From positions 5,060,327 through 5,124,326 of the forward strand of contig NZ_JNIM01000001.1 in NCBI RefSeq assembly GCF_000702505.1: DNA of 64,000 nucleotides, read 5' to 3'. Positions 55,616 to 63,521 of the stretch are shown one piece after another. This DNA is from Thermogemmatispora carboxidivorans. GTDB lineage: Bacteria > Chloroflexota > Ktedonobacteria > Ktedonobacterales > Ktedonobacteraceae. Position numbers and translations under genes: made by a program. How positions within the stretch are numbered: position 1 is the stretch's first letter; each line of letters opens with the position of its first letter. The notes beneath the pieces were generated by a model. That model saw only the letters and a program-made list of their open reading frames with translations. It did not search any database and was not told the origin of the DNA.

Positions 55616-56479
55616 CTAGCTGACCACCGCGCGGCGGAAGGTATAGATGCCCAGAAAGAGGAAGGCAACAAAGGTCACACCCAAACCCAGCAGCACCCAG
55701 CCAATGCCCAGAGTCGGCAGGGTATAGCCGTGGACTGGAGGCACCATTGCATAGCGCAGGCCCTCGCAGGCATAGGTCAAGGGATTGAAAAGGGTGATCA
55801 CCTGAAACCAGCGGATACCATCCAGCTGACTCCAGGGATAGTAGGTGCAGCCAGTGAAGATGAGCGGCGTAAAGATCAGAGCGAACATCAGGCCAATCTG
55901 TTCAGGCTTCACCAGCGTCCCAATCGTCAGACCAAGAGTGGCCCCTGCCAGAGCGGTGAGTACCATGATGCCGATGATGACCCCGATGGCATCGGCGCGC
56001 ACGCTGTAGCTGCTACCGAGCACCCAATAGGCCAGAGGGAAGATGATCGCGCCGGCCACCAACCCACGTAAGGCCGCAAAGAGAATTTTTTCGAGGGCCA
56101 CCAGGCTCACCGGCAGCGGGGCCAACAGGCGATCATCGATCTCGCGCCCAAAGCCCAAATCGAGCACCAGAGGCAAGGTCACGCCCTGCAGGGCCGTTGT
56201 GACCACCGTCAGCCCGACGATGCCAGGTAGCAGGAGCGAGGCATAGCTCTGCTGAGCAGCGCCAATCGAGGGCAGCACCTTGCCAAAGATGAAGAGAAAG
56301 AAGAGCGGCTGAAGGAGCACCTGAATCAGGAAGGGAATGAACTCCCGTCCCGTCACCACCAGGTCGCGGCGCAAGATGGCCAGAAAGGCCACCAGGATCA
56401 TCAGTAGCCGGCTGCGGGGCCGCCTCTCCTTCGTCTTCTTCTCAAGAAAAATTGCATCTATCGATGTTTCAACACTCAT
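55616..56479 (-). CDS. DrrB-like ABC-2 exporter permease
   Basis: A 287-residue integral membrane protein with six predicted helices, of the ABC2_membrane (DrrB/NodJ) type. The conserved loop GREIDDRLLAPLPVSLVALEK follows helix three, and the Gly/Pro-rich MFALIFTPLIFTGCTYYPW near helix five is typical. It works with the upstream ATPase; the start codon overlaps the ATPase stop by 4 bases. The ATPase genes of this group often export drugs or lipids. The EXLDI gene upstream belongs to the same locus. Confidence 0.9.
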   Translation of the reverse strand: MSVETSIDAIFLEKKTKERRPRSRLLMILVAFLAILRRDLVVTGREFIPFLIQVLLQPLFFLFIFGKVLPSIGAAQQSYASLLLPGIVGLTVVTTALQGVTLPLVLDLGFGREIDDRLLAPLPVSLVALEKILFAALRGLVAGAIIFPLAYWVLGSSYSVRADAIGVIIGIMVLTALAGATLGLTIGTLVKPEQIGLMFALIFTPLIFTGCTYYPWSQLDGIRWFQVITLFNPLTYACEGLRYAMVPPVHGYTLPTLGIGWVLLGLGVTFVAFLFLGIYTFRRAVVS

Positions 56480-57543
56480 GAACGGAGATTCCTCCCTGTC
56501 AGGTAGATGAAGACGTCTTCAAGGCTTGGGCGGGCCACATGGAGATCGCGCAGCTCAGCGCCGCTGGTGCTGACGACGCGCATGGCCTCGACTGCCAGCT
56601 CCCCCGCCTCCTCGCCATAGAGGCGGAAGGAGCGGGTCCCGTGATTCTCTTGTCCATCCTCAGCGGGCAGTTCTTCGATGCGCGGTGACCCTGGTAACTG
56701 CTCTAGCAAAGCGCGCAGACCATCAGGAGAGGGAGCGCCATCCCCGTTATGGGAAGCCATAGCCGTCTGAGGAAGGCGCAGGCGCAGCTCCAGGCGCGTT
56801 CCGCCTGGCACCAACTTCTTGAGATTATCGGGCGTATCAAGCACCAGGATATGGCCATGATCCATAATGGCAATGCGCTCGCAGAGCTGCTCGGCCTCCT
56901 CCATATCGTGTGTCGTCAAGAGGATCGTCACCCCGCGCTCGTGCATGGCGCGAATGCGGTCCCACAAGAAGAGGCGCGACTGCGGATCAAGGCTATTAGT
57001 CGGCTCGTCGAGAAAGAGCACGTCCGGCGAGTGCATCAGGGCGCGGGCCAGCATCAGCCGCTGCGCCATTCCACCCGAGTAGCGCCTGATCTTTTCACGC
57101 CCCCGTCCCTCCAGGCCCAGCTCCTTAAGCAAGGCCTCGGCGCGCGCCTCGCGCTCCGCTCGTGGCACGCCATGATAGGCAGCGTGGAAGGTCAGAATCT
57201 CACGCGCACGCAGACTCTGGTCCAGATTACTGCGCTGAGGCACCACCGAGATGCGCTGCTTGACGCCGATGGGATCACGCACCACATCAACGCCCATGAT
57301 CTGCACCGTGCCGCTGGTGGGCAAGACACTGGTCGTCAGAATACCGATGGTCGTGGTCTTCCCTGCCCCATTGGGGCCGAGCAGACCGAAGATCTCACCG
57401 CGACGCACGCTGAAGGAAATGCCATCGACAGCATTCACCTTGCTGTGCGGATAACACTTGACGAGATCGCGCACCTCAATGGCCAGCTCTTCTGTCTCCT
57501 CTGTCCGCATCGGTACTTTTCTCTCCATATCTGTTTGAGACAT
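56476..57543 (-). CDS. DrrA-like ABC exporter ATP-binding protein
   Basis: A 355-residue ABC ATPase with Walker A GPNGAGKTT, Q-loop VVPQRSN, signature YSGGMAQRL, Walker B LFLDEPTNSLD and the switch His in TTHDMEEAE. The last 110 residues form a regulatory C-terminal domain common to drug and antibiotic exporters of the DrrA group. The listed ATG at 57543 has a weak ribosome site. Starts at 57528 and 57510 are also possible, the latter with GGAGAG upstream. The transcript probably begins near 57890. Confidence 0.92.
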   Translation of the reverse strand: MSQTDMERKVPMRTEETEELAIEVRDLVKCYPHSKVNAVDGISFSVRRGEIFGLLGPNGAGKTTTIGILTTSVLPTSGTVQIMGVDVVRDPIGVKQRISVVPQRSNLDQSLRAREILTFHAAYHGVPRAEREARAEALLKELGLEGRGREKIRRYSGGMAQRLMLARALMHSPDVLFLDEPTNSLDPQSRLFLWDRIRAMHERGVTILLTTHDMEEAEQLCERIAIMDHGHILVLDTPDNLKKLVPGGTRLELRLRLPQTAMASHNGDGAPSPDGLRALLEQLPGSPRIEELPAEDGQENHGTRSFRLYGEEAGELAVEAMRVVSTSGAELRDLHVARPSLEDVFIYLTGRNLRS

Positions 57544-57894: not shown

Positions 57895-57923
57895 ATTTTA
57901 TCACGAGACCATGAAAATATCAA
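57895..57923 (-). promoter_or_regulatory. Promoter of the DrrAB-like exporter operon
   Basis: On the minus strand the -35 is TTGATA (57918-57923) and the -10 is TAAAAT (57895-57900), with a 17-bp spacer. The -35 lies inside the palindrome. Confidence 0.6.
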
Positions 57924-57934
57924 TATTTTCATGG
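57909..57934. promoter_or_regulatory. 26-bp palindrome overlapping the exporter -35, candidate operator
   Basis: Arms CCATGAAAATAT (57909-57920) and ATATTTTCATGG (57923-57934) are perfect complements around a CA. It covers the -35 box of the exporter promoter, so a repressor bound here would block it. It could also be the terminator of the EXLDI gene. Confidence 0.6.
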
Positions 57935-57985
57935 CGGATAATACTAGAGTGGTGAAGAGAGACGCTGCTGCCCCTCATCGGCCCG

Positions 57986-58507
57986 CTAGATATCCAGGAA
58001 CTCCACGCCGTCCTCTTCCTGATCAGCTTTCATGACTTGACAGACCGCCTCATACAGCTCTACCGGCAGATGAGCGCCTAGCTCCTCCAGAGAGTCGTAG
58101 ACCTCCAGCCGATAGCCATAGTCTTGGGGCCAGCAGGCCCACTCGCGGCCCTGACAGCTTTGTCGCGACCAATATCGCGAGTCGTTCCAGTCTGGTCCTT
58201 CTCGAACATAGACAGCAAACTTGCCTTTGCGCGTCAGATAGACGCGATAGAGCATTTCGCGGCCTTGCTCTGGCTGGCGACTCAGACCACGGGCCAGCAG
58301 GCGCCCGAAAAAGCGCTTATAGACACGGGCCATGCTGCCCACCCTGACCGTGATTTCCTCAAAACCGGTCCGTCGCGCTTCCTCGCGCTCCACAAAGCGA
58401 CGGAGGGCCGCGGCAATGGTAGCCGAAAGGTTACCACCCGCCAGCCGCTGAGCCTTCTCAAAGATCGGGAGATCAGCATCTGCTACATAGATGGTGCGAT
58501 TTGGCAA
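57986..58507 (-). CDS. EXLDI family protein with RHH-like N-terminus
   Basis: A 173-residue protein. The last residues are EFLDI, the EXLDI hallmark that names the family (TIGR04342, recalled from memory). The first 45 residues (MPNRTIYVADADLPIFEKA, LSATIAAALRRFVEREE) read as a beta strand and two helices like a CopG/Arc ribbon-helix-helix. The middle is alpha/beta with WNDSRYWSRQSCQGREW, Cys-containing. The start is TTG with a strong AGGAGGT site. In other bacteria these genes neighbour ABC exporter genes, as here. A role as regulator of the exporter is inferred. Confidence 0.8.
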   Translation of the reverse strand: MPNRTIYVADADLPIFEKAQRLAGGNLSATIAAALRRFVEREEARRTGFEEITVRVGSMARVYKRFFGRLLARGLSRQPEQGREMLYRVYLTRKGKFAVYVREGPDWNDSRYWSRQSCQGREWACWPQDYGYRLEVYDSLEELGAHLPVELYEAVCQVMKADQEEDGVEFLDI

Positions 58508-58646
58508 TGTCGGTACCTCCTACCGGGGCTTCTCTGCGAGTTCTGACCAGACCCCGCACAGGGTTCAGCCTTATTGAGCCTTCTCACACAGTTCCGCCAC
58601 GCTTCTCCTCCAGCTATCTCAGCGCGACAGAAAGATCTGTATACTT

Positions 58647-58660
58647 CTACGTATATGTAG
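58647..58660. promoter_or_regulatory. Near-palindrome in the EXLDI leader
   Basis: CTACGTATATGTAG shares the TACGTATA core with the spacer palindrome, and lies just downstream of the expected start of transcription. It is a candidate second operator. Confidence 0.4.
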
Positions 58661-58671
58661 CACTGCATGAC

Positions 58672-58701
58672 AGTATAATATACGTATACGTATATTTTCA
58701 A
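58672..58701 (-). promoter_or_regulatory. EXLDI promoter with palindrome filling the spacer
   Basis: On the minus strand the -35 is TTGAAA (58696-58701) and the -10 is TATACT (58672-58677). The 18-bp spacer (58678-58695) is exactly the palindrome ATATACGTATACGTATAT, and the symmetry extends one base each side. This layout is typical of a repressor operator. Confidence 0.75.
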
Positions 58702-62549: not shown

Positions 62550-63425
62550 ATGCGTATTCGCAAAGCCGTATTGCCAGTGGCGGGACTGGGCACGCGCATC
62601 CTGCCCGCAACGAAAGTTATCCCGAAAGAGATGCTGCCGCTGGTCGATAAGCCAACCTTACAATATATCGTCGAAGAGGCTGTGGCTTGCGGTATCGAGG
62701 AGATCATTTTCGTGACCAGTAGGAGCAAGCGCAGCATCGAGGATCATTTCGATGCCTTTCCCGAGCTGGAGCAGCTGCTGGAGCAGCGTGGCAAGTTGCA
62801 GGAATTGGAAGAGCTGCGGCGTGTGCAACAGATGGCGTATTACAGTGCCGTGCGCCAGCCCGAGCCACTGGGGCTAGGGCACGCCATTCTCTGTGCACGG
62901 CCCCTGGTAGGCGATGAGCCGTTCGTGGTCATGTTGGGCGATGTGCTGGTCGCTGAGGAGACGCCTTGCTTACCCCAACTGATGGCGATCCATGAGCGCT
63001 ACGGCGGCTCGGTGGTCGCGCTCGCTCCCGTGCCAGATGAGCTGATTCCTAGCTACGGCATTGCTGCTGTAGAGGAGCTTGGCGAGCAAGCCTTGCGGAT
63101 CACTCATCTGGTAGAGAAACCGCCACGGGAGCAAGCTCCCTCTAATCTGGCTGTGATGGGGCGCTATCTGTTGACGCCCGATATCTTTCCGCTGTTGGAA
63201 GAGACCCCACCTGGTTCCGGTGGAGAAATCCAGGTCACCGACGCCATTGAGCGCCAGGCACGCGAGGGGCGCTGCTATGGCTTACGCTTTACCGGCACCT
63301 ACTACGACACCGGCACACGCCTGGGTTTGCTGACCACGACGATCACCTATGCGCTCAAGCGCCCCGATCTGGCGCCTGATTTGCGAGCTTTTCTGCGTCA
63401 GGCCCTGCAGGAGGCGGAGGGCTAG
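62550..63425 (+). CDS. galU: UTP-glucose-1-phosphate uridylyltransferase
   Basis: A 291-residue nucleotidyltransferase. The N-terminal AVLPVAGLGTRILPATKVIP carries the nucleotide-binding loop. KEMLPLVDKPTLQYIVEEA, then the metal-binding VMLGDVL, VEKP and a GGEIQVTDAIE block follow. It makes UDP-glucose for cell-wall and capsular polymers. An AAGGAGG site precedes the ATG. No glycan genes are adjacent. Confidence 0.95.
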   Translation: MRIRKAVLPVAGLGTRILPATKVIPKEMLPLVDKPTLQYIVEEAVACGIEEIIFVTSRSKRSIEDHFDAFPELEQLLEQRGKLQELEELRRVQQMAYYSAVRQPEPLGLGHAILCARPLVGDEPFVVMLGDVLVAEETPCLPQLMAIHERYGGSVVALAPVPDELIPSYGIAAVEELGEQALRITHLVEKPPREQAPSNLAVMGRYLLTPDIFPLLEETPPGSGGEIQVTDAIERQAREGRCYGLRFTGTYYDTGTRLGLLTTTITYALKRPDLAPDLRAFLRQALQEAEG

Positions 63426-63437
63426 CCCGCCTCGCTT

Positions 63438-63499
63438 GTTCGTTCGTTCGTTCGTTCGTTCGTTCGTTCGTTCGTTCGTTCGCTCGCTCGCTCGCTCGC
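63438..63499. repeat. Tetranucleotide microsatellite after galU
   Basis: Eleven exact GTTC units (63438-63481) are followed by four GCTC units. The repeat begins 13 bp past the galU stop. Confidence 0.95.
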
Positions 63500-63521
63500 A
63501 GCGGCTGTCAGCGAGCAGACA

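Follow-up and report, generated by a model that had tools for sequence, protein, structure and literature searches.

RHH repressors such as AmrZ and ParD, as well as the antitoxins CcdA and VapB, regulate their own expression through palindromic operators located in their promoters. An RHH domain is a strand followed by two helices, about 45-50 residues in all, and forms an intertwined dimer with its beta-ribbon in the major groove. In NikR, an RHH domain is combined with a C-terminal sensor domain, and the protein controls a nickel ABC transporter. Exporters of the DrrAB type are in many cases controlled by PadR or TetR proteins, the gene of the local repressor being adjacent to the ABC exporter genes. 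The EXLDI family (TIGR04342) was compared here with these systems. No function of the family was found in the open-access literature searched, and TIGR04342 was used in no paper of that literature; one paper (PMC11076991) lists, for Parvimonas micra, an EXLDI protein next to an ABC transporter.

The window, which is the whole analyzed stretch of 64,000 nucleotides from Thermogemmatispora carboxidivorans, contained an EXLDI gene with the following features (positions are those of the window; no strand is given for palindromes).

57986..58507, minus strand: EXLDI gene (TIGR04342), 173 aa; NCBIfam match, AlphaFold2 models and alignment A1
58516..58520, minus strand: EXLDI ribosome-binding site GGAGG, read from the sequence and kept across the genus
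58696..58701, minus strand: EXLDI promoter -35 box TTGAAA (TTGACA in five congeners)
58672..58677, minus strand: EXLDI promoter -10 box TATACT
58678..58695: putative operator 1, a perfect 18-bp palindrome ATATACGTATACGTATAT that forms the entire -35/-10 spacer, with the core TATACGTATACGTATA at 58679-58694; sequence and motif scan
58640..58655: putative operator 2, TATACTTCTACGTATA, at about +10 to +25 from the inferred transcription start

The EXLDI promoter on the minus strand, TTGAAA-18-TATACT, agreed with the consensus at 10 of 12 positions, and its whole spacer was palindromic, as the sequence-only reading had described. The second near-palindrome reported in that reading, with the same core, was likewise present 39 bp downstream as a copy of ATATACGTATACGTATAT with two mismatches, and it had the GTATACTTCTACGTATA form seen in Actinomycetota. 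The start codon was TTG at 58507, preceded by GGAGG, with a leader of about 150 nt. An Rfam search for an RNA element gave no match.

The two sites were the sole matches in the 64 kb when up to three mismatches were allowed; 0.01 matches were expected in the shuffled 64-kb sequence, and none of 100 shuffles gave two. The search for copies elsewhere in the genome, which the sequence-only reading had proposed, was performed over the 5.6-Mb genome. The palindrome 16-mer occurred there in a single exact copy, and with two mismatches at operator 2 and at one other site (L002), which was apparently coding, a reading inferred from the similar L121. A further EXLDI regulon in its own genome was rejected on these grounds.

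Both operator sites were retained in all six Thermogemmatispora species. The six-species alignment showed divergent flanks upstream of EXLDI around a retained TTGACA, palindromic spacer and second site. In the sister species L028 two bases were altered symmetrically in both arms, so that the palindrome was still perfect. The comparison of the spacer in related genomes, also proposed earlier, therefore found the palindrome kept together with EXLDI throughout the genus. A palindromic spacer might be a mere AT-rich promoter feature or a low-complexity repeat with no dedicated binding protein, since alternating TA/CG steps favor the repeat expansion of such words and some Ktedonobacteria contain many copies. 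However, the word was single-copy in the Thermogemmatispora genome, was kept amid divergent flanks and had the same placement in high-GC Actinomycetota, which makes such an explanation scarcely credible.

The protein matched TIGR04342 with 85.4 bits against a cut-off of 32, over profile positions 1-124 of 124, and ended with EFLDI, that is, E-x-L-D-I at the extreme C-terminus. The tail x-L-D-I/V was present in 34 of 35 aligned members, L013 having DWDI instead, and the protein was 80 to 84% identical to EXLDI of the named Thermogemmatispora genomes. It consisted of an N-terminal RHH domain, as modeled for residues 1-48, and a 125-residue C-terminal beta-rich domain. The single-chain AlphaFold2 model of the N-terminal 48 residues (pLDDT 90.6) showed an extended N-terminus and helices at 10-22 and 27-47. 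Its 15 PDB matches were mostly RHH proteins (AmrZ with DNA, ParD, NikR, VapB, AtaR), the others being plant TCP domains and two chains named merely as transcription factor with DNA; TM-scores were 0.40-0.65, and the E-values of 3 to 10 were weak, for which the short length of the domain accounts. The Pfam RHH profiles of CcdA (17.1 bits, E-value 0.0073, cut-off 22.4) and VapB (14.6 bits, cut-off 23.4) both scored below their cut-offs, so that the assignment to RHH, proposed earlier from an RHH-like segment, is based on the fold model. A strand PN[KR]TIYV was nearly invariant across the aligned members. A sequence search of the PDB with the full alignment found no relative, and one with the N-terminal profile gave repeat-protein artefacts and a weak CopG match only. 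The C-terminal domain and the full protein gave no confident PDB match; the full-protein fold search returned one viral model at an E-value of 1.5e-3, and a search for phage or viral EXLDI proteins found none.

EXLDI loci were gathered from other Chloroflexota and from Actinomycetota, and 36 loci were counted. In 27 of the 36, the 200 bp upstream of EXLDI contained the word TACGTATA or its complement, and the remaining flanking DNA of the same loci had it once in 168,025 bp. A de novo motif trained on 30 upstream regions, all from outside the genus, was TATACGTATACATATA. When its matrix was run over the 64-kb window, operators 1 and 2 took the top two ranks, with 27.7 and 22.0 bits respectively, and the next unrelated site scored 8.5, which together with the conservation supports both TACGTATA sites as candidate operators. 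The word, whole or partial, lay inside a TTG...-16 to 19-TA...T spacer at 24 of the 36 loci, and in several actinomycetes the -10 box was a few bases ahead of the EXLDI start codon. The sign of the regulation was read from operator position alone: a fixed place in the promoter spacer argues for repression by promoter occlusion.

Three relatives had an altered beta-strand (TFYI in L032, TRNIYV in L033, TRNVYV in L077), and these lacked the TACGTATA word and had other promoter palindromes. The association between the strand change and the operator change gave a Fisher p of 0.0006, as a post hoc comparison of three cases judged by eye. L012 was an exception, with the usual beta-strand and yet a palindrome GTATCC-N8-GGATAC. 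The L032 palindrome upstream of the EXLDI gene was about 43 bp long (AAATCCCTATG...CATAGGGATTT). In a Ktedonobacter MAG (L014:3001-3081) a promoter-operator of the EXLDI type preceded a gene that was EXLDI-like in its first 27 residues only, apparently a truncated or decayed EXLDI copy.

Based on these data, it was concluded that EXLDI is very probably an autoregulating RHH repressor of an export locus, acting via TACGTATA-type operators and carrying a putative sensing C-terminal domain. The suggestion of the sequence-only reading that EXLDI may repress its own promoter was strongly supported by comparative evidence, namely the six congeners, the two phyla, the blind motif, the RHH fold and the co-change of strand and operator.

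Copies of the operator word were also recorded apart from EXLDI loci. In genomes that carry EXLDI, unlinked sites with the operator-in-spacer promoter form preceded DUF4097 genes (G764, G509) and a DrrAB exporter (G188). A further unlinked site lay ahead of a PadR-ABC locus in each of the sister species G071 and G111. With the reversed control pattern, no match was obtained in G188, G071, G111 or G764, and G509 had one on each strand. The core TATACGTATACGTATA was also found in Ktedonobacteria without EXLDI, hence the word is not exclusive to EXLDI.

PadR or TetR proteins often control exporter loci. A protein of this kind, or some other regulator, might bind the TACGTATA operator and control EXLDI, which would then not be the DNA-binding partner; the site ahead of the PadR gene in G071 and G111 and the word in EXLDI-lacking genomes are in line with this. 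We considered it quite unlikely, since EXLDI was the sole gene of a DNA-binding type common to all loci, including the exporter-less L011 and L035, where the word or its form was kept. Moreover, the EXLDI N-terminus models as RHH, the operator differs where its beta-strand differs, and the EXLDI-free occurrences examined were mostly long hexamer arrays or hairpins, several of them around parA-RHH loci.

Dense arrays of ACGTATAC/GTATACGT were observed on secondary replicons of other Ktedonobacteria, with 74, 20, 18 and 51 copies in L099 (5259-13403), L100, L101 and L106, respectively. They surrounded parA, followed by a gene for a protein with an RHH-like C-terminus (ERITLWMDKQLKQ...), and these loci are candidates for a ParA/RHH partition locus that shares the DNA word of the EXLDI operator. 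In L101:9948-10400, perfect ACGTATACGTATACGT hairpins with longer inverted flanking arms were located a few hundred bases from an IS605-type OrfB-like gene, and possibly represent mobile palindromic repeats.

The exporter genes lay beyond EXLDI on the same strand, with the following features.

56476..57543, minus strand: ABC exporter ATPase, 355 aa, PF00005, called DrrA-like only, as its TIGR01188 score of 308.6 bits is under the cut-off of 312.45
55616..56479, minus strand: ABC-2 type permease, 287 aa, PF01061 78.4 bits; its start overlaps the ATPase stop
57895..57923, minus strand: exporter promoter TTGATA-17-TAAAAT (TTGAT[AT]-17-TAAAAT in five of six congeners)
57909..57934: nearly perfect 26-bp palindrome CCATGAAAATAT-TG-ATATTTTCATGG, covering the exporter -35 box; sequence

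The family and the gene context given in the sequence-only reading were confirmed, and EXLDI and the exporter were adjacent in all six Thermogemmatispora species. Outside the genus, the distance from the EXLDI stop to the start of the ABC ATPase gene was mostly no more than a few tens of bases, or the two overlapped. Among the EXLDI genes without an exporter, one was followed by a nitroreductase gene and two, from two genera, adjoined galU (L049, L059). In the window galU was located at 62550-63425, 4 kb from EXLDI, which suggests that EXLDI-galU is an old synteny and that the exporter was lost from it or inserted into it. Just past the end of galU a short tandem repeat was present at 63422-63500, one frame of which reads RSFVRSFVRSFVRS.

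A possible control of the exporter by EXLDI was supported by the operon-like structure in most other genera, where a single promoter-operator may serve all the genes. Such control is uncertain in Thermogemmatispora, where the exporter begins about 440 bp beyond EXLDI and is preceded by a separate promoter that lacks a TACGTATA site. There EXLDI might merely autoregulate while the exporter is expressed independently and constitutively; the conservation of TTGAT[AT]-17-TAAAAT and the gap both agree with this option, to which we gave slightly less than an even chance. Against it, a search for terminator-like sequences between the two genes was negative, so that read-through may occur, and the pair stays adjacent in all six species of the genus.

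The 26-bp palindrome, which the sequence-only reading had presented as separate and operator-like, was real and covered the -35 box. Its occurrence by chance in 64 kb was unlikely, and it was single-copy in the genome. It was found in two of the six Thermogemmatispora genomes, those of the window species and of its closest relative, the latter with two mismatches. In three other congeners the promoter core was kept with 7 to 9 of the 13 palindrome pairs broken; the exporter promoter region of the sixth species (L009) did not align. Apart from the flank CCWTGAAAATAT, which it had in common with the EXLDI -35 region, the palindrome was unlike the TACGTATA word. The sequence-only reading had named loss of the palindrome in relatives that keep the gene pair as refuting evidence, and such absence was found in four of the six species. 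A conserved operator at this position was rejected by the congener alignment and the genus-wide search, and the comparison suggests that the palindrome is probably a local oddity and not an operator of general importance. It could still be a separate second operator, bound by EXLDI or another protein, that controls the exporter in this species, as its near-perfect form on the -35 box and its presence in the sister species would allow, but its absence elsewhere and the lack of another genome copy make this unlikely.

For the preferred reading of EXLDI as an autoregulating repressor, the following mechanism was proposed. From the observed sequence, conservation, architecture and fold model we infer that EXLDI dimers, probably joined as a tetramer, would bind operator DNA, the N-terminal beta-ribbon reading TACGTATA-type words in the spacer operator. 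In Thermogemmatispora the second operator, just past the transcription start, would also be bound. RNA polymerase would be excluded from the occupied promoter, and EXLDI would thus be kept at a low level. As EXLDI precedes the ABC ATPase and permease as the first gene in most genera, one operator would govern the exporter as well; the same promoter-operator was seen at a few unlinked operons for exporters and DUF4097 proteins. In Thermogemmatispora read-through would be the only route for such control, if there is any. A signal that relieves the repression is probably taken up by the C-terminal beta-rich domain, which bears the conserved EXLDI tail.

A wider proposal is offered tentatively, as we put it well short of an even chance: EXLDI may represent a hitherto unassigned sensor-repressor family of Chloroflexota and Actinomycetota, in which one conserved DNA word controls exporter operons both nearby and elsewhere in the genome, and the unmatched C-terminal domain and conserved tail sense either the exporter's state or the compound that it exports. 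The family had been known by the letters of its C-terminus alone; it now has a defined operator, an initial regulon and a function that can be tested, and this in two phyla with many secondary metabolites. The operator allows the export systems under each EXLDI to be identified, and the palindrome changes paired with beta-strand changes make an RHH recognition code directly testable.

The functional assignment obtained for this uncharacterised family is well supported, and its general kind is already known. Within TIGR04342 the window protein was a clear member by score and C-terminal EFLDI, and the operator, the regulon and the RHH assignment are additions of this analysis. EXLDI resembles AmrZ, ParD and the CcdA/VapB antitoxins in its predicted short N-terminal strand and two helices, for which the best structural matches were RHH proteins, and in its proposed autoregulation by a promoter palindrome, but it differs from them by the 125-residue beta-rich domain and by preceding ABC exporter genes rather than a toxin gene. 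The predicted plan of an RHH domain with a putative sensing domain, in a protein that would regulate a neighboring ABC transporter, is shared with NikR, as is the RHH fold match; however, the C-terminal domain was unmatched to that of NikR, and transport by the DrrAB-like systems is export rather than import. As in the PadR/TetR-controlled systems, a putative local repressor gene adjoins an ABC exporter, whereas the DNA-binding domain of EXLDI is modeled as RHH and not as a winged helix or HTH.
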